NCBI GenBank assembly: GCA_021845595.1
Contig: JAJZVV010000003.1
Location: 62,001-126,000 of the forward strand
DNA from: Pseudomonadota bacterium
GTDB lineage: Bacteria > Pseudomonadota > Alphaproteobacteria > Acetobacterales > Acetobacteraceae
Direction: 5' to 3'
Length of the DNA stretch: 64,000 nt
Below, piece by piece: positions 8,113-54,016 of this stretch. Numbering within the stretch: the stretch's first letter is position 1; each line of letters starts with the position of its first letter. The notes under the pieces are model-generated. The model had not been told where the DNA came from. It searched no databases and worked only from the letters and a program-made list of their open reading frames with translations. The position numbers were made by a program, and so were the translations under genes.

Positions 8113-9648
8113 ATGCGGACAACGAGGCTGGCGGCGACCATCGCCATCGTCATGGCCGCGGGTGGGGCGCCGTGTGGCAGCGCGGTCGCGGCCGAATGCG
8201 GCGCGCTGGCCGGGATGCGGGTCGCGGATGGGCGGGTGATCGCCGCCACCCCGGTGAACCCGCCCTTCACCATCGTCTCGCCCTACCGGTCCGAGCCGGC
8301 CGAGGTCGCCGTGCCGTTCTGCCGGGTCCAGGGCGTGCTCCGCCCGAGCGAGGATTCGGACATCCGCTTCGAGGTCTGGCTGCCGCCGCCCGGGGCCTGG
8401 AACGGGCGCTACGAGGGTGTCGGCAATGGCGGGTTCGCGGGATCGCTGATCTATACCGGCATGGCCAATGCGCTGGCCGGCGGCTACGCCGTCTCCGCCA
8501 CCGATACCGGGCACGGCGCCGACGGCACCGATGCGCGCTGGGCGATCGGCCATCCCGAGAAAGTGATCGATTTCGGCGAGCGCTCCATTCACGTCACCGC
8601 CATCGCCGCCAAGGCGGTGATCGCCGCCTATTACGGCCGTGCCGCCGAGCGCGCCTATTTCAGCGGCTGCTCCGATGGCGGGCGCGAGGCGCTGGTCGAG
8701 GCCGAGCGCTACCCGGACGATTACGACGGCATCGTCGCCGGCGCGCCGGCCAATGCCTGGGTCAAGCTGGTGACGACGGCGATGTGGAACGAGACGGCCC
8801 TGGCCGCCGAACCGGGCAGCGCCATTCCGCCGGACAAGCTGGCGGTGATTTCCCACGCCGTGCATGCGGCCTGCCACGCCACCGGCGGCGTGGTCGGCGC
8901 GCCGGAGCAGTGCCGTTTCGACCCCGCCACGCTGGCCTGCCCGCCCGGGGGCGAGGGCGGCGCCTGCCTGAGCCGGCCGCAGATCGCCGCGCTCGACAAA
9001 ATCTATGGCGGGCCGCGCGACGCCGCCGGCCACCCGGTATTCCCCGGCTTCGCGCCGGGGGGCGAGGAGGGGCCGGCGGGCTGGGCGCTGTGGATCACCG
9101 GCCGGCCCGGCCAGGCGCCGCTGCAGCTGCAGTTCGGTACCGGGTTCTATTCCGGCATGGTCTACGAGGATCCGACCTGGACCCTGAAGCGGTTCGATCT
9201 CGGGCCCGATCTCGCCGCCGCCGCCGCCAAGCTCGGCGCCGTGCTCGATGCCACCGATCCCGATCTCTCGCGCTTCCGCGCCCATGGCGGCAAGCTGATC
9301 ACCTATCATGGCTGGTACGACGCGGCGATCCCGCCGCAGAATTCGGTCGATTTCCTCGCCGCGGTGCAGGCGAAGAACGGCGGCGCGGCGGCGACCGACG
9401 GGTTCTACCGGCTGTTCATGATGCCGGGCATGGGCCATTGCCGCGGCGGGCCGGGCGAGGACGCGATCGGCGGCGTGTTCGGTCCCTCCGCGCCGGTGCG
9501 TGACGCGACGCATGACGTGGTCGAGGCGCTGGCGCGCTGGGTCGAGCAGGGCGTGGCGCCGGAGAAGCTGGTGGCGAGCGCCTACGCCCACGGCCAGCCG
9601 AGCCAGGGGGTCGCCAGCGAGCGCGTGCTCACGCCGTATGGGCGCTGA
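8113..9648 (+). CDS. Tannase/feruloyl esterase family hydrolase, secreted
   Basis: This 511-residue alpha/beta hydrolase starts with a signal peptide: a basic n-region, a hydrophobic core, and a probable cleavage near AVAAE at about residue 26. The nucleophile elbow is GCSDGGR with Ser187 flanked by Cys186; family members use GCSxGGR and a neighbouring disulfide. Later the catalytic Asp lies in HGWYDAAI and the His in GMGHCRGG, where the second Cys of the disulfide is also seen. Tannase-family enzymes hydrolyse ester bonds of hydroxycinnamates or gallates, and some act on plasticiser-type aromatic esters; the substrate here is unknown. It is exported, so it likely acts in the periplasm or outside. 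The DUF1345 gene overlaps its stop codon. Confidence 0.92.
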   Translation: MRTTRLAATIAIVMAAGGAPCGSAVAAECGALAGMRVADGRVIAATPVNPPFTIVSPYRSEPAEVAVPFCRVQGVLRPSEDSDIRFEVWLPPPGAWNGRYEGVGNGGFAGSLIYTGMANALAGGYAVSATDTGHGADGTDARWAIGHPEKVIDFGERSIHVTAIAAKAVIAAYYGRAAERAYFSGCSDGGREALVEAERYPDDYDGIVAGAPANAWVKLVTTAMWNETALAAEPGSAIPPDKLAVISHAVHAACHATGGVVGAPEQCRFDPATLACPPGGEGGACLSRPQIAALDKIYGGPRDAAGHPVFPGFAPGGEEGPAGWALWITGRPGQAPLQLQFGTGFYSGMVYEDPTWTLKRFDLGPDLAAAAAKLGAVLDATDPDLSRFRAHGGKLITYHGWYDAAIPPQNSVDFLAAVQAKNGGAAATDGFYRLFMMPGMGHCRGGPGEDAIGGVFGPSAPVRDATHDVVEALARWVEQGVAPEKLVASAYAHGQPSQGVASERVLTPYGR

Positions 9649-10333
9649 GCCGGCCGCCATGGCCGCCGGCCGCATCGCCCTGGTGGCGCGCGCGCTGCGG
9701 GCGCGGCCGCGTCTGCTCGCCGGCGTGCTCGCCGGGGCGGCGGCCGGCCTCGTCCTGCCCGCCAGCGTGCCGCCGCTGGCGCGTGCCATCGTCGCCTGGG
9801 ATCTCGGCGTGGTGCTGTTCCTGGTGCTCGCCGCGCATCTCTTCACCGCCGAGCGCGACCGCACGCTGCCCGAGGACGCGGCGGCGCAGGAGGAAGGGGA
9901 GTGGACCATCTTCGCCGTCACGCTCGGCGCCGTGGTGGCGAGCTTCGCCGCCATCATCGGCGAATTCTCCACCACCAAGGAGATCCCGGCGACGGTGCGC
10001 GGGCTGCATATCCTGCTCGTCGTGGTGACGCTGCTGGTCTCGTGGCTGCTGACCCACACGCTGTTCGCCATGCGCTATGCCCATGAATTCTACCAGCGCA
10101 CCGCCGACGGCAGCGGCATCGACGGCGGGCTGGAATTTCCCGGCACGACGACGCCGGGCTACTGGGACTTTTTCTACTTCTCGCTCGTCCTCGGCATGAC
10201 GTTCCAGGTCTCGGACGTGCAGATCAGTTCGGCCAAGCTGCGCGGCGTGGCGACCGTGCACGGGCTGCTGAGCTTTCTGTTCAACACCGTGATCCTGGCC
10301 CTGTCGGTCAATATCGGGGCGAGCCTGCTGTGA
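9638..10333 (+). CDS. DUF1345 family inner-membrane protein
   Basis: The protein (231 residues from ATG 9638, or 224 from ATG 9659) has about five hydrophobic segments. It carries the DUF1345 hallmarks: a WDLGVVLFLVLA segment, a central TMxxH-like part ending LLTHTLFAMRYAHEFY, and TPGYWDFFYFSLVLGMTFQVSDVQ. Function is not known for the family. The upstream ATG overlaps the esterase stop by 11 bases, which favours translational coupling. The downstream acyl-CoA ligase follows after 10 bases, so esterase, DUF1345 and ligase may form one transcript. Confidence 0.85.
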   Translation: MGAEPAAMAAGRIALVARALRARPRLLAGVLAGAAAGLVLPASVPPLARAIVAWDLGVVLFLVLAAHLFTAERDRTLPEDAAAQEEGEWTIFAVTLGAVVASFAAIIGEFSTTKEIPATVRGLHILLVVVTLLVSWLLTHTLFAMRYAHEFYQRTADGSGIDGGLEFPGTTTPGYWDFFYFSLVLGMTFQVSDVQISSAKLRGVATVHGLLSFLFNTVILALSVNIGASLL

Positions 10334-10343
10334 GGGTGAAACC

Positions 10344-11993
10344 ATGCTCGGGCTGATGCAGCATTATCCGCTGATGATCTCCTCGCTGATCACCCACGCC
10401 GCGCGCCATCACGGGCACGCGGAAGTGGTCTCCAACATGGGCGGCGCGGCGCTGCATCGCACCAACTATGCCGGCATCGAACGGCGCGCGCGCCGGCTGG
10501 CGCGCGTGCTCGCCGCGCTCGGCGTCGGCTTCGGCGATCGCGTCGCCACCCTGGCCTGGAACGACTACCGTCATCTCGAACTCTATTACGGCGTCTCCGG
10601 CACCGGCGCGGTGTGCCATACCGTCAATCCGCGGCTTTCGGCGGAGGATATCGGCTTCATCATGGCCGATGCCGGGGACGGCGTGGTCTTCGCCGACCCC
10701 GGCTTCGCCGCGTTGCTCGCGGCCGTCGTGCCTGCGGTGCGCGGCACGGTGCGCGACGTGGTGCTGCTCACCGACGAGGCCGGGATGGTCGATGTCGCGC
10801 TCGCCCCGGGCATGCGCCTGCATTGCTACGAGACGCTGATGGCGGCGGCGGACGAGGATTACGACTGGCCGGCCTTCGACGAGAACACGGCCAGCGCGCT
10901 GTGCTACACCTCCGGCACCACGGGGCGGCCGAAGGGCGTGCTCTACAGCCATCGCTCGACGATGCTGCACACCTACGCCGCCAACACGCCGGACGTGTTC
11001 GGCCTGCGCGCGGTGGACCGGGTTCTGCCGGGCGCGTCGATGTATCACGCCTGCGCCTGGGGACTGCCCTATTGCGCGACCATGGTCGGCGCGGGGTTGG
11101 TTCTGCCCGGGCGCCATCTCGACGGCGCCAGCCTGCACCGCATGCTGGAGGCCGAGCGCATCACGCTCACCGCCGGCGTGCCGACGATCTGGCTCGGCCT
11201 GCTCGCGCATCTGCAATCGACCGGCGCCCGGCTGACCCAGGTCAAGCGCATGCTGGTCGCCGGGTCCGCGCTGCCGCGCGTACTGATCGAGGCGTTCACG
11301 CCGATGGGCATCAATGTCGAGCAGGGCTGGGGCATGACCGAGACCAGCCCGATCGTCACCTACAACGCGCCGACGCCGGCCAGCGCCGCGCTCGACGGCG
11401 AGGCGGCGATCCGCCAGCGGCTGAAGCAGGGCCGCGCCGCCTGCGGCACGGACATGAAGATCGTCGACGCCGAAGGCCGCGAACTGCCGTGGGACGGCAA
11501 GGCGTTCGGCGATTTCCTGGTGCGCGGGCACTGGGTGTGCCGCGAATATCTCAATCGCGGCGCCGAGGGCGCGGCCGATGCCGAGGGCTGGCTGCTCACC
11601 GGCGATGTCTGCACCATCGATGCCGATGGCTGCGCCGAGATCGTCGATCGCTCCAAGGACGTGATCAAGTCGGGTGGCGAGTGGATCAGCTCGATCACGC
11701 TGGAGAATCTCGCCGTTTCCCACCCTGCCGTCGCCGAGGCGGCGATCATCGGCGCGCGCCATCCGAAATGGCAGGAGCGGCCGCTGCTGCTGGTGGTGCC
11801 GCGCGCCGGCATGCGCGTCGAACCGGCCGACGTGCTCGCCGTGTTCGAGGGCAAGGTCGCGAAATGGTGGCTGCCGGACGCCGTGGTCGTGGTCGAAGAC
11901 CTGCCGCACACGGCGACCGGCAAGCTGAACAAGCTGGCGCTGCGCGCGCGCTGGCAGAATTATCTGGTGCAGCAGGCCGGCCCCACAACCTGA
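10344..11993 (+). CDS. Fatty-acid/carboxylate--CoA ligase (AMP-forming)
   Basis: The 549-residue enzyme belongs to the ANL superfamily and joins a carboxylic acid to CoA through an acyl-AMP. The AMP-binding P-loop [11 protein letters not shown] lies near residue 190. The A5 motif is [10 protein letters not shown] near 330, the hinge Asp-Arg is in [17 protein letters not shown], and the C-terminal catalytic Lys is in [10 protein letters not shown]. The overall pattern, including [14 protein letters not shown], is closest to the AlkK-like medium/long-chain family. It precedes a permease and then the dehydrogenase, SDR and kinase described below, so it is a good candidate to activate the acid that this module degrades (inference). 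Confidence 0.93.
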
Positions 11994-12033
11994 CAGGGTT
12001 GGCGCAGCCGCGGCGCGCGGCTATCGCTCCGGC

Positions 12034-13254
12034 ATGGGTTCCGACCTCACGCGCGCCGCCGCGGTCCTGATCTTTGTCATCACCTACGCGGTTCTGGCGG
12101 TGGGAAGGCTGCCCGGCTTCCGCATCGACCGGCCGGCGGCGGCCTTCCTCGGCGCGGCGCTGATGGTGGCCTTCGGCGGCATCGGCCTGGCGGAGGCCTG
12201 GCGCGCCATCGACATGGACACGCTGGCGCTGCTGCTCGGCATGATGGTGGTGGTGGCGGCCCTGACCCGTGCCGGCGCCTTCCGCCTCGTCGTGGCCTGG
12301 GCGGTGACGCGGGCCCGCCATCCGCTGCTGCTGCTCGCCGCCATCGTGCTCGCCAGCGGCCTGGTCTCGGCCTTCCTGGTCAATGACACGGTCTGCCTCG
12401 TGCTGACGCCGTTGGTGCTCGATCTCGTCGCCCGCCTGCGCCGCCGCCCGGTGCCCTATCTGCTGGCCATCGCCATGGCCGCGAACATCGGCAGCACGGC
12501 GACGATCACCGGCAACCCGCAGAACATGATCATCGGCAGCCTCTCGCACATTCCGTACGGCGCTTTCACCCGGGCGCTGGCGCCGGTCGCCGGCGTGGGG
12601 CTGGTGCTGACGGTGGCGCTGATCGCGCTCGTCTGGCGGGAGGAATTCTTCACCGCCGGGCCGCTGCGCGCCACGCCGGCGCCGGTGCATGCCTCCGGGC
12701 CGCTGGTGCGGCTTTCGGTGATGGTGACGGGGGCGATGGTGGCGGGCTTCTTCGCCGGCGTTCCGCCTGCCATCGTCGCCGTGCTGGGCGGCGCGCTGCT
12801 GGTGCTGGTCTCGCGCACCAAGCCGGAGAAATTCTACGCCGGCATCGACGGCACGCTGCTGCTGATGTTCGCCGGCCTGTTCATCATCGTCGCCGGGATG
12901 GAGCGGGCGGTGCTGTCGCCGGCGCTGCTCGGCGCGGTGGCGGGGCTCGGGCTCGACCGCGCCTGGGTGCTCACCCTGCTCACCGCCGCGCTCTCCAACG
13001 TGGTGAGCAACGTGCCGGCGGTGCTGGTGCTGCGCCCCTTCATCGCGCATCTGTCGGACCCCGAGCGCGCCTGGCTGGTGGTGGCGATGGCCTCGACGCT
13101 GGCCGGCAATCTGACCCTGCTCGGGTCGGTGGCGAACCTCATCGTCGCGCAGCAGGCGCGCCTCGGTGGCGTCCATATCGGGTTCCGCGCCTACGCCGTG
13201 GTCGGCGTGCCGCTGACCGTGCTCACCCTCGCCGCCGGCGTGCTGCTGCTCTGA
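12034..13254 (+). CDS. SLC13/ArsB-NhaD-type anion permease
   Basis: A polytopic inner-membrane protein (406 residues, about 10-11 hydrophobic segments) of the ion transporter superfamily. The two inverted halves each carry the characteristic re-entrant motif: the first is [15 protein letters not shown] near residue 115, with [12 protein letters not shown] near 160; the second is [15 protein letters not shown] near 330, with [14 protein letters not shown] near 360. These are the SNT/NxP-like signatures of CitMHS/DASS and ArsB/NhaD carriers. The transported ion cannot be read from sequence. It sits 40 bases after the CoA ligase and before the acyl-CoA dehydrogenase, so organic-acid uptake is an attractive guess. 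Confidence 0.88.
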
Positions 13255-13321
13255 TACCCCCCCTTTTCCGCCGCGCGTCGGGCTTCTAGGGTTGGCGGAA
13301 GAGCATGGAGGAGATGGTCCG

Positions 13322-14548
13322 GTGGAATTCGCATACACGGATAAGGTGAACGCGCTCCGCGCCCGGGTGCAGGCGTTCATGGACGAGCACGTCTACCCGA
13401 ACGAGGCCACCTACAAGGCCCAGATGGCCGCGGCCAAGGACCGCTGGCAGCCGGTGCCGATCGTCGACCAGCTCAAGCCGCTGGCGCACGCCGCCGGGCT
13501 GTGGAACCTGTTCCTGCCCCATTCGGAGCATGGCGCCGGCCTGACCAACCTGGAATACGCGCCGCTGGCCGAGATCATGGGCCGGGTGCAGTGGTCGTCC
13601 GAGGTGTTCAACTGCTCGGCCCCCGATACCGGCAACATGGAGACCATCGACCGCTACGGCACGGCGGAGCACAAGAAGCAGTGGCTGACGCCGCTGCTGG
13701 AGGGAAAGATCCGGTCCGCCTTCTGCATGACCGAGCCGGAAGTCGCGTCCTCGGATGCGACCAACATCCAGACCTCGATCCGCCGTGATGGCGACGACTA
13801 CGTCATCAACGGGCGCAAATGGTGGTCGTCCGGCACCGGCGATCCGCGCTGCAAGATTCTCATCGTCATGGGCAAGACGGATCCGCACAACCCGGACAAG
13901 CATCGCCAGCAATCGATGATCCTCGTGCCGGCCGACACCAAGGGCATCGAGATCAAGCGCATGCTGCCGGTGTTCGGCTTCGACGATGCGCCGCACGGCC
14001 ATGGCGAGGTGATTTTCCGCGACGTTCGCGTGCCGGCCTCGAACATTCTGCTCGGTGAGGGCCGCGGCTTCGAGATCGCGCAGGGGCGCCTCGGGCCGGG
14101 CCGCATCCATCATTGCATGCGCACCATCGGCCTCGCCGAGCGCGCGCTGGAAATGACCTGCAAGCGCGCGCTGGACCGCCACGTGTTCGGCCGCGCGCTC
14201 GCCGATCAGGGCGTGATGATCGAGCGCATCGCCAACATGCGCATCATGATCGAGCAGTCCCGCCTGCTGGTGCTGCACGCGGCGTGGAAGATGGACACCG
14301 TCGGCAACAAGGAAGCGCGGCGGGAGATCGCGGCGATCAAGGTGGCGGTGCCGAACATGGCCTGCCAGGTGATCGACTGGGCGGTGCAGGCCTTCGGCGC
14401 CGGCGGCGTGACCGAGGATTACGGGCTGGCCGAGATGTACAAGACGGCGCGCACGATGCGCATCGTCGACGGCCCGGACGAAGTGCACCGCCACCAGCTC
14501 GGCCGCCTGGAACTGGCGAAATACCGGCCGGCGCGGCCGAACATGTGA
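13322..14548 (+). CDS. Acyl-CoA dehydrogenase, ACAD10/11 type
   Basis: The 408-residue flavoenzyme shows strong resemblance to the dehydrogenase domain of ACAD11 and of bacterial LvaC-like proteins: [14 protein letters not shown] near residue 105, [15 protein letters not shown] near 140, [14 protein letters not shown] near 170, [20 protein letters not shown] near 260 and [11 protein letters not shown] near the end. The start is GTG 13322, preceded at 8 bases by GGAGGAG; ATGs at 13305 and 13314 are out of frame, and a TTG at 13292 is too far. ACAD11-like proteins act on phosphorylated 4-hydroxyacyl-CoAs rather than on simple acyl-CoAs. The partner kinase, fused to this domain in animals, is encoded separately two genes downstream. 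Confidence 0.93.
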
Positions 14549-14559
14549 GGACGAGCGCC

Positions 14560-15339
14560 ATGTCCCTGTTCGATCTCACCGGCAAGGTCGCCATCGTCAC
14601 CGGCTCGTCGCGCGGCATCGGGCGTGCGATCGCCGAACGGCTTGCCGAGCACGGTGCGCGTGTCGTCGTCTCCTCGCGCAAGGCGGAGGCGTGCGAGCCG
14701 GTGGCGGCTGCGATCCGTGCCAAGGGCGGGCAGGCGATCGTCGTGCCGTGCCATATCGGCCACAAGGACCAGCTGCAGGCGCTGGTCGAGCGCACCAAGG
14801 CCGAGTGGGGCGGCATCGACGTGCTGGTGTGCAACGCCGCGCTGAACCCGTATTTCGGCCCCTCCGCCGGCATTCCGGACGAAGCCTATGACCGCATCAT
14901 GGGCGCCAACGTGCGCAGCAATTTCTGGCTGTGCAACATGGCGCTGCCGGGCATGGCGGCGCGCGGCGGCGGATCGGTGATCATCGTCTCCTCGATCGCC
15001 GGGCTGCGCGGCACGCCGCTGCTCGCCGTCTATGGCCTGTCCAAGGCCGCCGACATGCAGATGGCGCGCAACATCGCCGTCGAGTGGGGGCCGAAGAACA
15101 TCCGCGCCAACTGCATCGCGCCGGGGCTGGTGCGCACCGATTTCGCGCGCGCGCTGTGGGAAAATCCTGAACTGGAGAAGAAGCGCTCGCGCGAGACCCC
15201 GCTGCTGCGCATCGGCGAGCCGGACGAGATCGCCGGCGCGGCGGTGTTTCTGGCCTCGCCGGCCGGGTCCTTCATGACCGGCCAGTCCATCGTCATCGAT
15301 GGCGGGGTGACGATCGGTTCGCCGAACAGCGCGGAATAG
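14560..15339 (+). CDS. SDR family oxidoreductase
   Basis: A classical SDR of 259 residues: TGSSRGIGRA for cofactor binding near residue 15, NAAL in place of NNAG near 90, IVSSIAG with the catalytic Ser near 143, YGLSK with Tyr and Lys near 157, and a C-terminal FMTGQSIVIDGG. It lies 11 bases after the acyl-CoA dehydrogenase and 7 bases before the kinase, so the three are surely one operon. In the lva pathway of Pseudomonas putida an SDR reduces a 4-keto acyl-CoA to the 4-hydroxy form; that would fit this context, but it is inferred from neighbours rather than from residues. Confidence 0.92.
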   Translation: MSLFDLTGKVAIVTGSSRGIGRAIAERLAEHGARVVVSSRKAEACEPVAAAIRAKGGQAIVVPCHIGHKDQLQALVERTKAEWGGIDVLVCNAALNPYFGPSAGIPDEAYDRIMGANVRSNFWLCNMALPGMAARGGGSVIIVSSIAGLRGTPLLAVYGLSKAADMQMARNIAVEWGPKNIRANCIAPGLVRTDFARALWENPELEKKRSRETPLLRIGEPDEIAGAAVFLASPAGSFMTGQSIVIDGGVTIGSPNSAE

Positions 15340-15346
15340 CGGGCCG

Positions 15347-16405
15347 ATGGTGGCGGAGGGGGCGCCGGAGCTCGTTCCGGTCCTGCCCAATCATCGCTTC
15401 GACGAGGCGGCGCTCGCGGCCTATCTGCGCGGCCGTCTCGGCGGTTTCGCCGGCGACCTGGTCGTGCGCCAGTTCCAGGGCGGGCAGTCCAACCCGACCT
15501 TTCATCTCGCGGCGGGCGGGCACGCGTTCGTCCTGCGCAAGAAGCCGCCGGGCAAGCTGCTGCCCTCGGCGCACGCGGTCGATCGCGAATATGCCGTGCT
15601 CGCTGCGCTCGCGGGCTCGGATGTGCCGGTGCCGCGCGTGCATCTGCTGTGCACGGACGAAGCCGTGATCGGGCAGATGTTCTACGTCATGGACTACGTC
15701 CCCGGCCGCGTCTTCGCCGACCGCGCCATTCCCGGCGCGACCCCGGCGGACCGCGCGGCGATGTATGACGACATGAACCGCATCCTCGCGCGCCTGCATC
15801 GGGTCGATTGGCGCGCCGCCGGGCTCGGCGGGTTCGGCCGGCCGGAAAACTACTTCGCGCGCCAGATCGCGCGCTGGTCGAAGCAGTACGAAGCCTCGCG
15901 CACCGAGGACGTGCCGGCGATGGAGCGGCTGATGCGCTGGCTCGCCGAAACGACGCCGCCGGCCGACGAAGCGGTGATCGTGCACGGCGATTTCCGCCTC
16001 GGCAATCTTCTGTTCCACCCCACCGAGCCGCGCGTTCTGGCAGTTCTGGACTGGGAACTTTCGACCATCGGCCATCCGCTGGCCGATCTCGCCTACAATG
16101 TCCTCACCTACCGCCTGCCGGAGAGCGCCGGCGGCGCGCCGGAGGCGGATCTCGTCGCGCTCGGCATTCCGGCCGAGGCCGATTATGTCGCGCGCTATGT
16201 CCAGCGCGTCGGCCGCGCCGATGCCGCGACCCTCGAATACGCGATCGTCTTCGCCATGTTCCGCCTCGCCGCCATCGTCGCCGGCGTGTATCGCCGCGCG
16301 CTCGACGGCAACGCAGCCGATGCGCGCGCGCTCGAACGCGGCGTGGTGTTCCGCGAAGTTGCCGAGCGCGCCTGGGCTTATGCGCAGGCGCTCGGTGCCC
16401 GCTGA
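15347..16405 (+). CDS. APH-fold kinase, ACAD10/11 N-domain type (probable 4-hydroxyacyl-CoA kinase)
   Basis: This 352-residue protein has the aminoglycoside phosphotransferase fold. Visible motifs are FQGGQSNPTF (the G-rich loop), FVLRKKPPGKLLPSAH with the ATP-binding Lys, IVHGDFRLGNLLFH with the catalytic Asp and Asn near residue 215, and LDWELSTIGHPLADLA with the metal-binding Asp. The same strings are characteristic of the kinase domain of ACAD10/ACAD11 and of LvaA. Such kinases phosphorylate the 4-hydroxy group of acyl-CoAs. It does not look like an antibiotic-resistance enzyme. It closes the ligase-permease-dehydrogenase-SDR-kinase run; the small LvaB-type subunit found in the Pseudomonas operon is not seen here. 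Confidence 0.9.
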   Translation: MVAEGAPELVPVLPNHRFDEAALAAYLRGRLGGFAGDLVVRQFQGGQSNPTFHLAAGGHAFVLRKKPPGKLLPSAHAVDREYAVLAALAGSDVPVPRVHLLCTDEAVIGQMFYVMDYVPGRVFADRAIPGATPADRAAMYDDMNRILARLHRVDWRAAGLGGFGRPENYFARQIARWSKQYEASRTEDVPAMERLMRWLAETTPPADEAVIVHGDFRLGNLLFHPTEPRVLAVLDWELSTIGHPLADLAYNVLTYRLPESAGGAPEADLVALGIPAEADYVARYVQRVGRADAATLEYAIVFAMFRLAAIVAGVYRRALDGNAADARALERGVVFREVAERAWAYAQALGAR

Positions 16406-17493: not shown

Positions 17494-17621
17494 CGTCGTC
17501 GAAGCCGGTCGGGTCATGGCCGGCAGAAATGGGCTTCGGCCGCGGCGGCGGCAAGGATAGATAGGGCCAGCCGGACGAGCGCCCCGCTGCGTGCCGGGGG
17601 CGGATGCCCAAGGAGGATGTC

Positions 17622-18416
17622 ATGGATGCAGCTCCCGATCTCGCCGAACCCCTGTTGCGCCGCGATGCCGATGGCGTCGCCTGGCTGACGCTGAACCGGC
17701 CGGCCCAGCGCAACGCCCTGTCGATCGGCCTGATGACCGCGCTGGAACAGGCGATCGCCGCCATCGCCGCCGATGCCTCGGTGAAGGTCGTCGTCCTCGG
17801 CGGCGCCGGGCCGGCGTTCTGCGCCGGGCATGACCTCCGGGAAATGCGCGCCGAGCCGAAACGCGAGGCCTATGCGGCGCTGTTCACCCAGTGCTCGCGG
17901 CTGATGACGGCGATCGTCCGCCTGCCCAAGCCGGTGATCGCGCGGGTGCACGGGGTCGCCACCGCCGCCGGCTGCCAGCTCGTCGCCAGCTGCGATCTCG
18001 CCCTCGCCGCCGAGACCGCGCGGTTCGCCACGCCGGGGGTGAATATCGGCCTGTTCTGCTCGACCCCGATGGTCGCCCTGTCGCGCGCCGTGCCGCGCAA
18101 GATGGCGATGGAAATGCTGCTCACCGGCGAGCTGGTCCCGGCCGCGCGGGCGCGCGAGATCGGGCTGGTCAACCGCGTCGTGCCGGAGGCCGCGCTCGAT
18201 GCCGAAACCGCGGCGCTGGCCGCGCAGATCGCCGCCAAGAGCCCGCTGACGCTGGCGATCGGCAAGGAGGCGTTCTACCGGCAAGTGGAAATGGACCTCG
18301 ATGCCGCCTACGGCTACGCCGCCGAGGTCATGACCCGCAACATGCTGACGCGCGACGCCGAGGCGGGGATCGACGCGTTCCTCGGCAAGCGCCAGCCGGT
18401 TTGGACCGGCACCTGA
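17622..18416 (+). CDS. Enoyl-CoA hydratase family protein (ECHDC3-like)
   Basis: A 264-residue crotonase-fold protein. The oxyanion-hole segments are AFCAGHDLREM near residue 60 and GVATAAGCQLVASCDLALA near 110; FATPGVNIGLFCSTPMVALSR and RKMAMEMLLTG follow. This string set is typical of the ECHDC3 branch, whose exact substrate is not settled; the Glu expected for hydratase activity in the second segment is not obvious, so it might not be a classical hydratase. ATG 17622 is supported by AGGAGG five bases upstream; the earlier ATG at 17604 overlaps that site. Its TGA abuts the stop of the convergent small-protein gene. Confidence 0.88.
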   Translation: MDAAPDLAEPLLRRDADGVAWLTLNRPAQRNALSIGLMTALEQAIAAIAADASVKVVVLGGAGPAFCAGHDLREMRAEPKREAYAALFTQCSRLMTAIVRLPKPVIARVHGVATAAGCQLVASCDLALAAETARFATPGVNIGLFCSTPMVALSRAVPRKMAMEMLLTGELVPAARAREIGLVNRVVPEAALDAETAALAAQIAAKSPLTLAIGKEAFYRQVEMDLDAAYGYAAEVMTRNMLTRDAEAGIDAFLGKRQPVWTGT

Positions 18417-18796: not shown

Positions 18797-21388
18797 TTAA
18801 CGGCGGGTTGCCGGGCGCAGCCAGCCGAGCAGAGCGGGCAGGAAGGCGAAAGTGCCGATCAGCGTGCAGAACAGGCTGAGCAGCAGCAGCTTGCCCATGG
18901 ACGCGGTGCCGGGATGGCCGGACAGGGCCAGCGCGCCGAACGCGGAGCCCGTGGTCAGCGCCGAGAACAGCACCGCCCGCGCCGTCGCCGAGCCGAGGAA
19001 CAGGCGCGCGCCGGCCCGCCAGTTCATCACGAAATAGATGTTGAACGAGACGCCGACGCCGAGCAGCAGCGGCAGCGCGATGATGTTGGCGAAGTTCAGC
19101 GGCAGCGGCAGCAGCACCGCGGCCAGCGCCACCAGTAGCGCCGAGACCAGCAGGCTCGCCAGCACCAGCGCCGCATCCACGACGCGCCGCAGCGCCAGGA
19201 GGAGGATGACGGCGATCGCGACCAGCGCGCCGAGCGTGGCGGCGCGGAAGGCGTGCAGGATGGTGGCGCTGGTATCGACGATGGACACCGCCGCGCCACC
19301 GGCCTCCGGCGCGACGCCGCGCACCGCGCTCACCAGCCGGCTCAGCCCGGCGCTGCTGCGGTTCGCCGCGTTGCCCAGAACCTGGATGCGCACCTGTCCC
19401 TGCGCCGTCACCCAGTCCCGCCGGATTTCCGGCGGCAGGTCGGCGAGGGTCACGGGGCGGGCGGAAAGCGCGGTGCGCAGCCCGTCCAGCTCGGCGGGCA
19501 GGAAGCGGGTCAGCGCCGCGTTCATGGCGAGGAGGGTCGGGTCCGGCGCCCCCTCCAGCCGGTGCAGCGCGGCGGCGAGCGGGGCGAGCGCCGCGCCTTG
19601 CGGGCCCTTCGCGACGGCGGGATCGAGCTGGGCCAGGGTCATGCGCAGCGCCTGGCGGATATCGGTCGCGGTGATCGGCTCCGCGCTCGGCGCCGCCGCC
19701 AGGGTGGGCGCGAGAATGGCCGCGGCGTCGGCGATCAGGGCGAGCTTCGCCGTCTGGTCCTCGGGCACGAAGCTGGCCTCGGTCAGCACCTGACCCACCG
19801 GCGCCAGCGCTTTCAGCTTCGGCACCAGCGCCTCGGCGTCCTTGAACGACGGCACCAGGATGTCGATGCCGTACGGGTTGGTGAGCGGGTTGTCGATCAG
19901 GTCGTGCAGGGTGCGCATCGCCTCGGTATCGGCGTTCTTGGTGTGCAGCGGATCGCCGTCGAATTGCAGATGCGGCAGGGCGAACGCGCCGGCGAGCGCG
20001 GCGAGCAGGATGGCGGCCAGCACCGGCAGCCGGGCGCGGCCCAGCGCCGCGTCCGCCGCCAGGCCGCCGGGCAGCCCCACCTCGGCCTGCTCGGCCGGCG
20101 GGCGGAACAGGGTGAGCGCGGCGGGCAGGACGGTGAGGGTGCAGGCGAAGGCGATGATCATGCCGCTGCCGGCGATCAGGCCGAGCTCGGCGACGCCGCG
20201 GAAATCGGTCGGCACGAAGGCATAGAACCCGGCGGCGGTGGCCGTCGCGGCGACCAGGATCTGCGGCCCGACGCGGCGGATCGTCGCCGCCATGGCGGCC
20301 GGCGGATCGCCCAGGCCGAGCCGCATCTCGCGGAAGCGGACGCTGAACTGGATGGCGAAATCGACGGCGATGCCGACGAAGAGGATGGCGAAGGCGACCG
20401 AGATCAGGTTCAGCGTGCCCACCGCCAGGGCGGCGAAGCCGGCGGTGATGCTGAACCCGGCGGCCAGCGTCAGCAGGATCGGCACGATCAGCCGCCAGGA
20501 GCGGACGGCGAGGAACAGCCAGAGCGTGATCAGCGCCACGCTGCCGAGCGTGCCGGCGACCATGCCCTGGGCGACGGTGGCGAATTCCTCGTCGGCCAGC
20601 GCGACCGGGCCGGTGATGCGCACCCGCGCCTGGCCCGTGCGGACGAATTCCAGCCCGGCCGCCGCCCGCCGTACCGCGTCGCTCGCCGCCCGGCCGGGCT
20701 CCAGCGCGCCGTAATCGAGCACCGGCTGGGCCAGGACGAAGCGGTAGCGGCCGGCGAGATCGGCTTCGCTGCCGCTGATCAGGCGCTGCCAGGAGAGCGG
20801 CACCTTGTGGCCGGCGGCGGCGGCGTCGAGCGTCGCGGCGAAGCCCTTGAGCGAGGGCACATAGGGGCCGAGGTCCGCCTCGCCGCGCTGCACGCCGATG
20901 CCGAGCAGCGAGAGCGCCGCGAACAGGCCGCGCGCCGTCGGGTCCGGGGCGAGCTGGCCGAGAAACGGCTGGGCGTCGATCACCCGGTCGAGCAGCGACC
21001 CGAGGTCCTTCTTGTCCAGGAACAGCATGCCCTCGCGGGCGAAATAGGCCGAGGCGTCGGGGCGGCGGACGTCGCGCAGGTGCGCGCTGTCCTGCGCCAG
21101 AGCGCCGGTGAGCGCGGCGGCGGTGGCCTCGGCCTCCTCGGGCAGGTCGGCGTCGATCACCATCACCAGCAGGTCGGTCGATTGCGGGAAAGCGCGATCG
21201 AGCGCGATCTGGCGCTGCCGCCACGGCAGGGTTTCGGCGAACAGCCGGTCGGTGTCGCTGCTCAGCGCCAGGTGGAACACCGCGTAGGTGCCGGCGAGGG
21301 CGGCGAGGGCGAGGGTGGCGAACAGAATCGCGGGCGCGAGGCGCTGGGTGCGCGCCAGCAGCGCGTCGAGACGGAGCGAGAGCGACAT
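18797..21388 (-). CDS. hpnN: Hopanoid transporter HpnN (MMPL/RND family)
   Basis: This 863-residue inner-membrane protein has the two-fold RND layout: one N-terminal membrane helix (about 18-38), a large periplasmic domain (about 40-265), five to six helices (about 270-440), a second periplasmic domain, and a second helix bundle near the C-terminus. The motif GIAVDFAIQFSVRFRE in the first bundle is the MMPL signature; LLLGVGVSFNIYFVMNW is its counterpart in the second. HpnN moves hopanoids from the cytoplasmic to the outer membrane. No other hopanoid gene lies in the window. It diverges from the methyltransferase gene with a 99-base gap. Confidence 0.88.
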   Translation of the reverse strand: MSLSLRLDALLARTQRLAPAILFATLALAALAGTYAVFHLALSSDTDRLFAETLPWRQRQIALDRAFPQSTDLLVMVIDADLPEEAEATAAALTGALAQDSAHLRDVRRPDASAYFAREGMLFLDKKDLGSLLDRVIDAQPFLGQLAPDPTARGLFAALSLLGIGVQRGEADLGPYVPSLKGFAATLDAAAAGHKVPLSWQRLISGSEADLAGRYRFVLAQPVLDYGALEPGRAASDAVRRAAAGLEFVRTGQARVRITGPVALADEEFATVAQGMVAGTLGSVALITLWLFLAVRSWRLIVPILLTLAAGFSITAGFAALAVGTLNLISVAFAILFVGIAVDFAIQFSVRFREMRLGLGDPPAAMAATIRRVGPQILVAATATAAGFYAFVPTDFRGVAELGLIAGSGMIIAFACTLTVLPAALTLFRPPAEQAEVGLPGGLAADAALGRARLPVLAAILLAALAGAFALPHLQFDGDPLHTKNADTEAMRTLHDLIDNPLTNPYGIDILVPSFKDAEALVPKLKALAPVGQVLTEASFVPEDQTAKLALIADAAAILAPTLAAAPSAEPITATDIRQALRMTLAQLDPAVAKGPQGAALAPLAAALHRLEGAPDPTLLAMNAALTRFLPAELDGLRTALSARPVTLADLPPEIRRDWVTAQGQVRIQVLGNAANRSSAGLSRLVSAVRGVAPEAGGAAVSIVDTSATILHAFRAATLGALVAIAVILLLALRRVVDAALVLASLLVSALLVALAAVLLPLPLNFANIIALPLLLGVGVSFNIYFVMNWRAGARLFLGSATARAVLFSALTTGSAFGALALSGHPGTASMGKLLLLSLFCTLIGTFAFLPALLGWLRPATRR

Positions 21389-53584: not shown

Positions 53585-54016
53585 ATGGCGACGCGACCGA
53601 AAACCCCCGACATCGATCCGATGAAGATGTTCGCCGATATGAAACTGCCGAACGTTCCCGACGTGGAGACGCTGCTCGGCACCTATCGGCGCAATATCGA
53701 AGTATTTTCGCAGGCCAACCGCGTCGCCCTGGAGGGCGCGCAGACCGTCGCGCGGCGCCATATGGAGATTCTCCAGCAGATGGTCTCGGAACTCGCCGAG
53801 ACGGTGAAGCTGATGAGCGAGGCGGACGCGCCGGCGTCGAAGGCGGCGAAGCAGGCCGAACTGCTCAAGCACGCCTACGAGCGCTCGATCGCCAACAGCA
53901 AGGAGCTGAGCGATCTCATCCAGCACGCCAACGCCGAGGCGCTCGGCCTGCTCAACCGGCGTTTCATGGAAGCGATGGACGAAGTGAAATCGCTGATGGA
54001 GAAGGCTGGAAAGTGA
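53585..54016 (+). CDS. Phasin family protein
   Basis: The 143-residue product is highly helical, without cysteine, and shows the phasin_2-type pattern: KMFADMKLPNVPDVETLLGTYRRNIEVFSQANRVALEGAQTVARRHMEILQQM, then a C-terminal amphipathic segment ending in AMDEVKSLMEKAGK. Phasins coat polyhydroxyalkanoate granules or membranes and control granule size. No PHA synthase is in the window. A weak TATAGT box (about 53532) may be part of its promoter. Confidence 0.88.
   Translation: MATRPKTPDIDPMKMFADMKLPNVPDVETLLGTYRRNIEVFSQANRVALEGAQTVARRHMEILQQMVSELAETVKLMSEADAPASKAAKQAELLKHAYERSIANSKELSDLIQHANAEALGLLNRRFMEAMDEVKSLMEKAGK

Follow-up and report, generated by a model that had tools for sequence, protein, structure and literature searches.

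The stretch of DNA analyzed here (the window; 64,000 nucleotides) derives from an Acetobacteraceae genome of 3.6 Mb, which is 97% complete, and harbors at positions 10344 to 16405 of its plus strand five consecutive genes whose products are predicted to participate in the breakdown of 4-hydroxy acids. In order, these genes encode a DmdB-like AMP-forming acyl-coenzyme A (CoA) ligase (10344 to 11993; Pfam AMP-binding, 237 bits), a CitMHS/ArsB-type permease (12034 to 13254; CitMHS, 223 bits), an LvaC-like acyl-CoA dehydrogenase (ACAD) of the ACAD10/11 type (13322 to 14548; Acyl-CoA_dh_1/M/N, 130/76/51 bits), a short-chain dehydrogenase (SDR) (14560 to 15339; adh_short_C2, 227 bits), and an APH-fold kinase of the ACAD11 kinase-domain clade (15347 to 16405; APH, 185 bits), with intergenic gaps of 40, 67, 11, and 7 bases. 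The initial annotation of this DNA had described the region as a five-gene module carrying ACAD11 and APH strings; its frames are confirmed here, and all six strings that it quoted are present in the translations. The open frame of the dehydrogenase begins earlier, with a TTG at position 13292, and the SDR frame is nested within a longer one opening at position 14113. A crude filter on codon composition retains four of the five frames, whose third-position G+C is 0.86 to 0.95, but not the SDR frame, which is supported by homology.

The dehydrogenase most closely resembles the solved structures 4hr3 (480 bits), mouse ACAD11 (8v3u and 8v3v; 476 and 474 bits), and 2wbi, which is also ACAD11 (463 bits), its assignment to the ACAD10/11 type being based on the comparison with ACAD11. 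The best-matching ordinary ACAD of known structure, a medium-chain ACAD, reaches 158 bits, and the resemblance to ACAD11 is, on these scores (476 versus 158 bits), not a product of chance. Identity to mouse ACAD11 amounts to 54% (212 of 390 positions). In the available text of PMC12440821, R626, H634, and R637 (4-phosphate) and D753 (catalysis) are given, together with R631, as functional residues of ACAD11. When columns are matched by motif to the published numbering, as was done for both the dehydrogenase and the kinase, R626, R631, H634, R637, and D753 correspond to R256, R261, H264, R267, and D383 of the window dehydrogenase. All 94 distinct ACAD11-type frames compared share this residue set; the number includes the window and mouse proteins, and overlapping loci could have made one gene count twice. 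Nine of the 13 further ACAD-like places in the genome were compared with the set: at the positions of R626, H634, R637, and D753, no match was seen in any of these frames, one of which is gapped at two of the four. The window dehydrogenase is the sole ACAD11-type gene found in the genome, being recovered at 947 bits with the next match at 142 bits.

A comparable picture emerged for the kinase, whose matches among solved structures are 3dxp (400 bits), ACAD11 (283 and 279 bits), 9o56 (196 bits), 3ats (60 bits), 9fsg (58 bits), and 6ef6 (37 bits). It is 53% identical to 3dxp; against the kinase domain of mouse ACAD11, identity is 45% over 319 positions. The CoA-contacting arginines R80 and R172, the catalytic aspartate D215, the following asparagine N220, and the aspartate of the DWE motif, D235, have invariant equivalents in all 83 kinases compared (those of 80 loci, the window, a paralogue from its own genome, and Bosea), with R80, the arginine beside the alphaC glutamate, equated with the published R86 from its description. 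In a phylogenetic tree of 49 rows picked from 109, the window kinase, ACAD11 (one of four rows flagged for unusual composition), and 3dxp fall within one clade together with all 23 window-type rows (support, 99/99). Two further groups are separate from it: T3, which includes 9o56 (11 rows; 99/98; the long T3 row L239 falls outside), and DK, which comprises the DUF6285-linked kinases (12 rows; 100/100). The assignment of both proteins to the ACAD10/11 type in the initial annotation is thereby upheld.

The kinase might instead be an antibiotic or small-molecule kinase, with the dehydrogenase a normal beta-oxidation enzyme and the two genes neighbors by chance. Such a reading could appeal to the Pfam APH label, to a score of 48 bits against the NCBIfam APH(3') model (cutoff, 205), and to public records whose products are named, for instance, aminoglycoside phosphotransferase; indeed, 9o56 (a T3 member in the tree), 9fsg, and 6ef6 were labeled aminoglycoside phosphotransferase or phosphotransferase-like by their depositors. 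It is nevertheless highly improbable, as the kinase scores 283 bits to ACAD11 versus at most 31 bits to specific antibiotic kinases (31 bits being to the macrolide kinase Mph), lies in the ACAD11 clade of a tree from which antibiotic kinases were left out, and accompanies a dehydrogenase that has aspartate as its catalytic residue together with the Arg/His set for phosphate binding. A grouping with choline or aminoglycoside kinases had been named by the initial annotation as grounds for abandoning its interpretation; aminoglycoside kinase identity is rejected here by bit scores, upon which, rather than upon the tree, the separation from antibiotic kinases is based, and choline kinases are absent among the matches.

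From family, clade, residues, and gene order, all of which were observed directly, we infer a split ACAD10/11-type pathway in which a 4-hydroxyacyl-CoA kinase and a phosphate-eliminating ACAD would feed beta-oxidation, and to which, as regards the kinase and dehydrogenase steps, we assign a probability of roughly 0.78. The permease would import an acid, whose CoA ester would be formed by the ligase, and the SDR would interconvert 4-oxoacyl-CoA and 4-hydroxyacyl-CoA. The kinase would then phosphorylate the 4-hydroxyl of 4-hydroxyacyl-CoA, a predicted step which its clade and conserved residues strongly support. The dehydrogenase, with flavin adenine dinucleotide (FAD), would eliminate phosphate from the resulting 4-phosphoacyl-CoA to give 2-enoyl-CoA, a prediction strongly supported by similarity and conserved residues. 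Ordinary beta-oxidation would complete the breakdown, perhaps using on 2-enoyl-CoA the enoyl-CoA hydratase encoded at positions 17604 to 18416 of the plus strand (Pfam ECH_1, 200 bits; NCBIfam PRK08139, 426 bits with a cutoff of 313), 1.2 kb downstream of the kinase and outside the operon. According to the available part of PMC11342911, human ACAD10/11 and a kinase and dehydrogenase of Burkholderia perform this 4-phosphorylation and phosphate removal. Of the proposed breakdown of a 4-hydroxy or 4-keto acid, 4-hydroxyacyl-CoA chemistry is the best reading of the kinase and dehydrogenase residues, and entry of 4-oxo acids into the pathway is probable.

The likeness to mammalian ACAD10/ACAD11 thus extends to catalytic, CoA-contact, and phosphate-binding residues, but there the two activities reside in one chain, whereas in the window they are encoded by two genes that flank an SDR gene, with ligase and permease genes adjoining. 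The initial annotation had considered these split genes noteworthy. No annotated frame, out of 817 at 329 loci, holds both kinase and ACAD domains, and separate genes are therefore not a special feature but the usual bacterial form; fusions suspected from long open frames (up to 772 amino acids) were discarded, as no frame matched both domains.

We are less sure of the roles of the SDR, ligase, and permease, each of which is more weakly supported than the kinase and dehydrogenase steps. The best solved relative of the SDR is DHRS4 (210 bits), and the protein is proposed to act, in an LvaD-like role, as a 4-oxoacyl-CoA reductase/4-hydroxyacyl-CoA dehydrogenase. The ligase most closely resembles 6ihk among solved structures (542 bits), its best NCBIfam model being 3-(methylthio)propionyl-CoA ligase (727 bits, under the cutoff of 822); from position and family, it is proposed to activate a 4-oxo or 4-hydroxy acid. 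The permease scores 88 bits to MamN and 77 bits to ArsB of NCBIfam, in each case far under the cutoff, and an arsenical pump is its only solved relative (32 bits). It is 94% identical to its counterparts in two same-genus genomes and 54 to 59% identical to those of three other genomes of the family, and it is proposed as the acid importer, its substrate and direction being suggested by position alone.

Of 240 genomes sampled from the class, 99 carry a kinase relative at E<1e-20 and 81 carry one at E<1e-80, the window's own genome included; the ACAD10/11 reaction pair is in this respect a common split bacterial module. The best 80 of 93 kinase loci were compared; because in 27 of them the sequence stops no more than 3.7 kb from the kinase, positive counts of neighbors are lower bounds. 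An ACAD11-type gene lies within 2.5 kb of the kinase at 45 loci, a strong same-strand SDR within 1.5 kb at 14, and all three (ACAD, SDR, and kinase) occur together, in the order seen in the window, at 13. The cluster is, in summary of its gene content, a well-conserved bacterial ACAD10/11-type module whose chemistry is already known. L001 and L002 belong to the window's own genus, and L001 keeps its gene order. The record of a further locus, L003, is titled Terriglobia (Acidobacteriota), although its permease, dehydrogenase, SDR, and kinase are 73 to 86% identical to those of the window and its kinase nests beside the window's; it is probably a mislabeled or mixed bin.

The same survey bears on the possibility that the core (dehydrogenase, SDR, and kinase) serves to process 4-hydroxy acids generally or to detoxify them (those of oxidized lipids, for instance), with the ligase and permease serving another acid or ion. 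Ten loci (L004 to L008, L010, L012, L013, L016, and L018) hold, by the distance thresholds applied, the core without ligase or permease, the permease is of a type common to ion pumps, and its 54 to 59% relatives (G058, G051, and G046) have no ACAD11-type gene in the surrounding 6 to 16 kb. Conversely, gaps of just 40 and 67 bases join ligase, permease, and dehydrogenase on one strand, the gene order of L001 is identical, and in L046 and L077 a same-family ligase (47 to 49% identity) is divergently oriented next to a gene of the ACAD11 type. To this alternative, which is compatible with the core of the pathway proposed above rather than exclusive of it, we give somewhat less than even weight.

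Several observations weigh against the proposed five-gene pathway. An ACAD11-type gene was not seen within 2.5 kb of the kinase at 35 of the 80 loci, and none is present in the 18 kb surrounding a second ACAD11-clade kinase of the window's own genome (G000:C42:102348-103298; L183:8190-9383), which is 52% identical to the window kinase over residues 17 to 332; kinase-clade membership alone is therefore no proof of pairing with the dehydrogenase. Neither the permease (within 8 kb of the kinase at 3 of the 80 loci, L001 to L003) nor a strong ligase (within 9 kb, likewise at 3 of the 80) is conserved with the core. The ligase exceeds the cutoff of PRK06187, a broad subfamily of long-chain-fatty-acid--CoA ligases (533 versus 476 bits), and the SDR exceeds that of a broad NCBIfam subfamily (271 versus 215 bits) bearing the name glucose 1-dehydrogenase, so that its specificity could be other than the proposed one. 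Finally, no regulator was recognized among the 18 window frames scanned, a promoter and terminator scan returned nothing exceeding chance, and methylmalonyl-CoA mutase was not found in the genome.

PrpB is encoded in the genome (422 bits; cutoff, 354); because it is present and methylmalonyl-CoA mutase was not found, propionyl-CoA arising from a C5 acid could exit by the methylcitrate route, provided that the rest of this route is present. An exclusion of levulinate for want of a propionyl-CoA outlet was accordingly dropped. The cluster may represent a true levulinate (lva-type) operon, in which ligase activation, SDR reduction, phosphorylation, and rearrangement would lead to acetyl-CoA and propionyl-CoA. 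The kinase, dehydrogenase, SDR, and ligase classes of the window match LvaA, LvaC, LvaD, and LvaE as described in the available part of PMC6692424, and the presence of PrpB agrees with such a function. The gene order differs from that of the lva operon of Pseudomonas putida KT2440, and a CitMHS/ArsB-type permease stands in place of LvaF/LvaG. Against such a function, neither the corresponding transporter pair (DUF485 plus an ActP symporter) nor an LvaR-type regulator is found among the 18 window frames scanned, to which the search for the pair was confined. The kinase, moreover, lies in the ACAD11 clade and not in the T3 clade, with 29 to 33% identity to two T3 kinases; LvaA probably belongs in the T3 clade. 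Chain length, furthermore, cannot be revealed by sequence. We regard a dedicated levulinate operon as rather unlikely, and the broader 4-hydroxyacyl-CoA pathway as the preferred interpretation.

The levulinate cluster of Pseudomonas citronellolis LA18T, as far as PMC6692424 presents it in its available part, appears similar to that of the window in that lvaB is not found there; it differs in possessing a histidine-phosphatase gene near the kinase, an ActP-type transporter, and a divergent ligase, LvaE2, none of which was recognized among the window frames scanned. T3-type kinases adjoin a histidine-phosphatase-like frame in L238, L244, and L295, and such frames also occur near the kinases of L289, L290, and L292, an arrangement resembling that P. 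citronellolis cluster; these frames were recognized by eye from the string RHGQASF, not by profile. An lva operon nameable as that of KT2440 was not found in the Gammaproteobacteria, an order-level set (2 genomes), the phylum sample, or the plasmids.

The initial annotation had also pointed to the absence of the small subunit LvaB, the 12-kDa partner of LvaA, which it described as DUF6285-like, an equation taken over here without confirmation. A DUF6285 gene was not found in the genome by profile search, and this constitutes a further difference from the lva operon. Among the genomes that carry kinase relatives, 8 of 42 contain the domain (42 of the 80 loci having been submitted), as do 7 of the 274 Gammaproteobacteria and 54 of the 240 genomes searched within the window's class; none of the 80 kinase loci has it. 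At 19 DUF6285 places with wide flanks, the nearby or fused kinase scored 38 to 100 bits to the window kinase versus 181 to 497 bits to a DUF6285-linked-kinase profile, into the building of which 8 of the 19 places had gone; at 30 places (of 59 listed for the class), the respective ranges were 0 to 80 and 297 to 456 bits. DUF6285 thus accompanies a different kinase type at 49 of 49 places examined, and an arginine at each CoA-contact position is present in just 1 of 12 DK kinases. The apparent lack of an LvaB-like partner is expected and no anomaly, since the window kinase belongs to the ACAD11 kinase-domain clade, since DUF6285 goes with another kinase type, since the published P. citronellolis cluster lacks lvaB (PMC6692424, in its available part), and since the available portions of PMC11342911 and PMC12440821, in which ACAD10/11 and a Burkholderia kinase are described as active, mention no such partner.

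Among the DUF6285-associated loci, eight (L143, L144, L314, L317, L319, L320, L324, and L328) carry the DUF6285 domain fused to its kinase, which hints at a physical partnership. In L139, L146, L150, L151, and L152, a DUF6285-linked kinase lies beside a divergent ACAD that scores 211 to 242 bits to the window dehydrogenase and retains the full R/R/H/R/D signature, which 5 of 12 ACAD frames near DUF6285 possess. These divergent ACADs possibly represent a further phosphate-eliminating lineage whose kinase would rely on DUF6285. That the kinases separate into an ACAD11 type, a T3 type (the probable home of LvaA), and a DUF6285-linked type makes it directly testable why some of them have a small partner, and the separate bacterial proteins could allow each half-reaction to be studied individually.

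ACAD11-type dehydrogenases were also detected on plasmids (197 of 72,556 records at E<1e-60), of which five neighborhoods were read. That of Bosea sp. NBC_00550 (L194) shares the order dehydrogenase-SDR-kinase with the window (identities of 64%, 59%, and 50%, respectively), but SDR, FadB-like, and thiolase genes come next, and no CoA ligase or CitMHS permease is annotated across 17 kb. Plasmids of Methylobacterium, Haematobacter, and a second Bosea carry both kinase and dehydrogenase in differing arrangements, and no kinase is annotated beside the dehydrogenase of pHG1.

The permease and ligase look like the only features specific to this group and the only new aspect of the cluster, their role in it being putative. 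The permease, which had been called unusual, is indeed odd for an lva-like cluster; it is, on the other hand, a lineage-specific neighbor whose role is read from position. We tentatively suggest, while considering it unlikely, that a carrier of the ArsB type and a ligase resembling DmdB were recruited in this Acetobacteraceae genus for the dedicated uptake and activation of a single 4-oxo or 4-hydroxy acid. We know of no printed role for CitMHS/ArsB carriers or DmdB-like ligases in 4-hydroxy-acid catabolism, no dedicated search having been made; were the suggestion true, both families would gain such a role. Among the papers listed in the literature searches, none was recognizable as dealing with this cluster.

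Upstream of the ligase, on the same strand, lie genes for a tannase/feruloyl-esterase family protein (8113 to 9648; Pfam Tannase, 356 bits) and, immediately adjacent to the ligase gene, a DUF1345 membrane protein (9644 to 10333). Both are retained in L001, where the tannase-family gene occupies the same place with 80% identity, the lowest conservation among these genes. It is speculative that this esterase releases the acid in question by ester or lactone hydrolysis. Elsewhere in the window, a large MMPL-family transporter gene (84 bits) is located at positions 18797 to 21388 of the minus strand, and a phasin (Phasin_2, 62 bits), a hint of polyhydroxyalkanoate granules, is encoded at positions 53585 to 54016.

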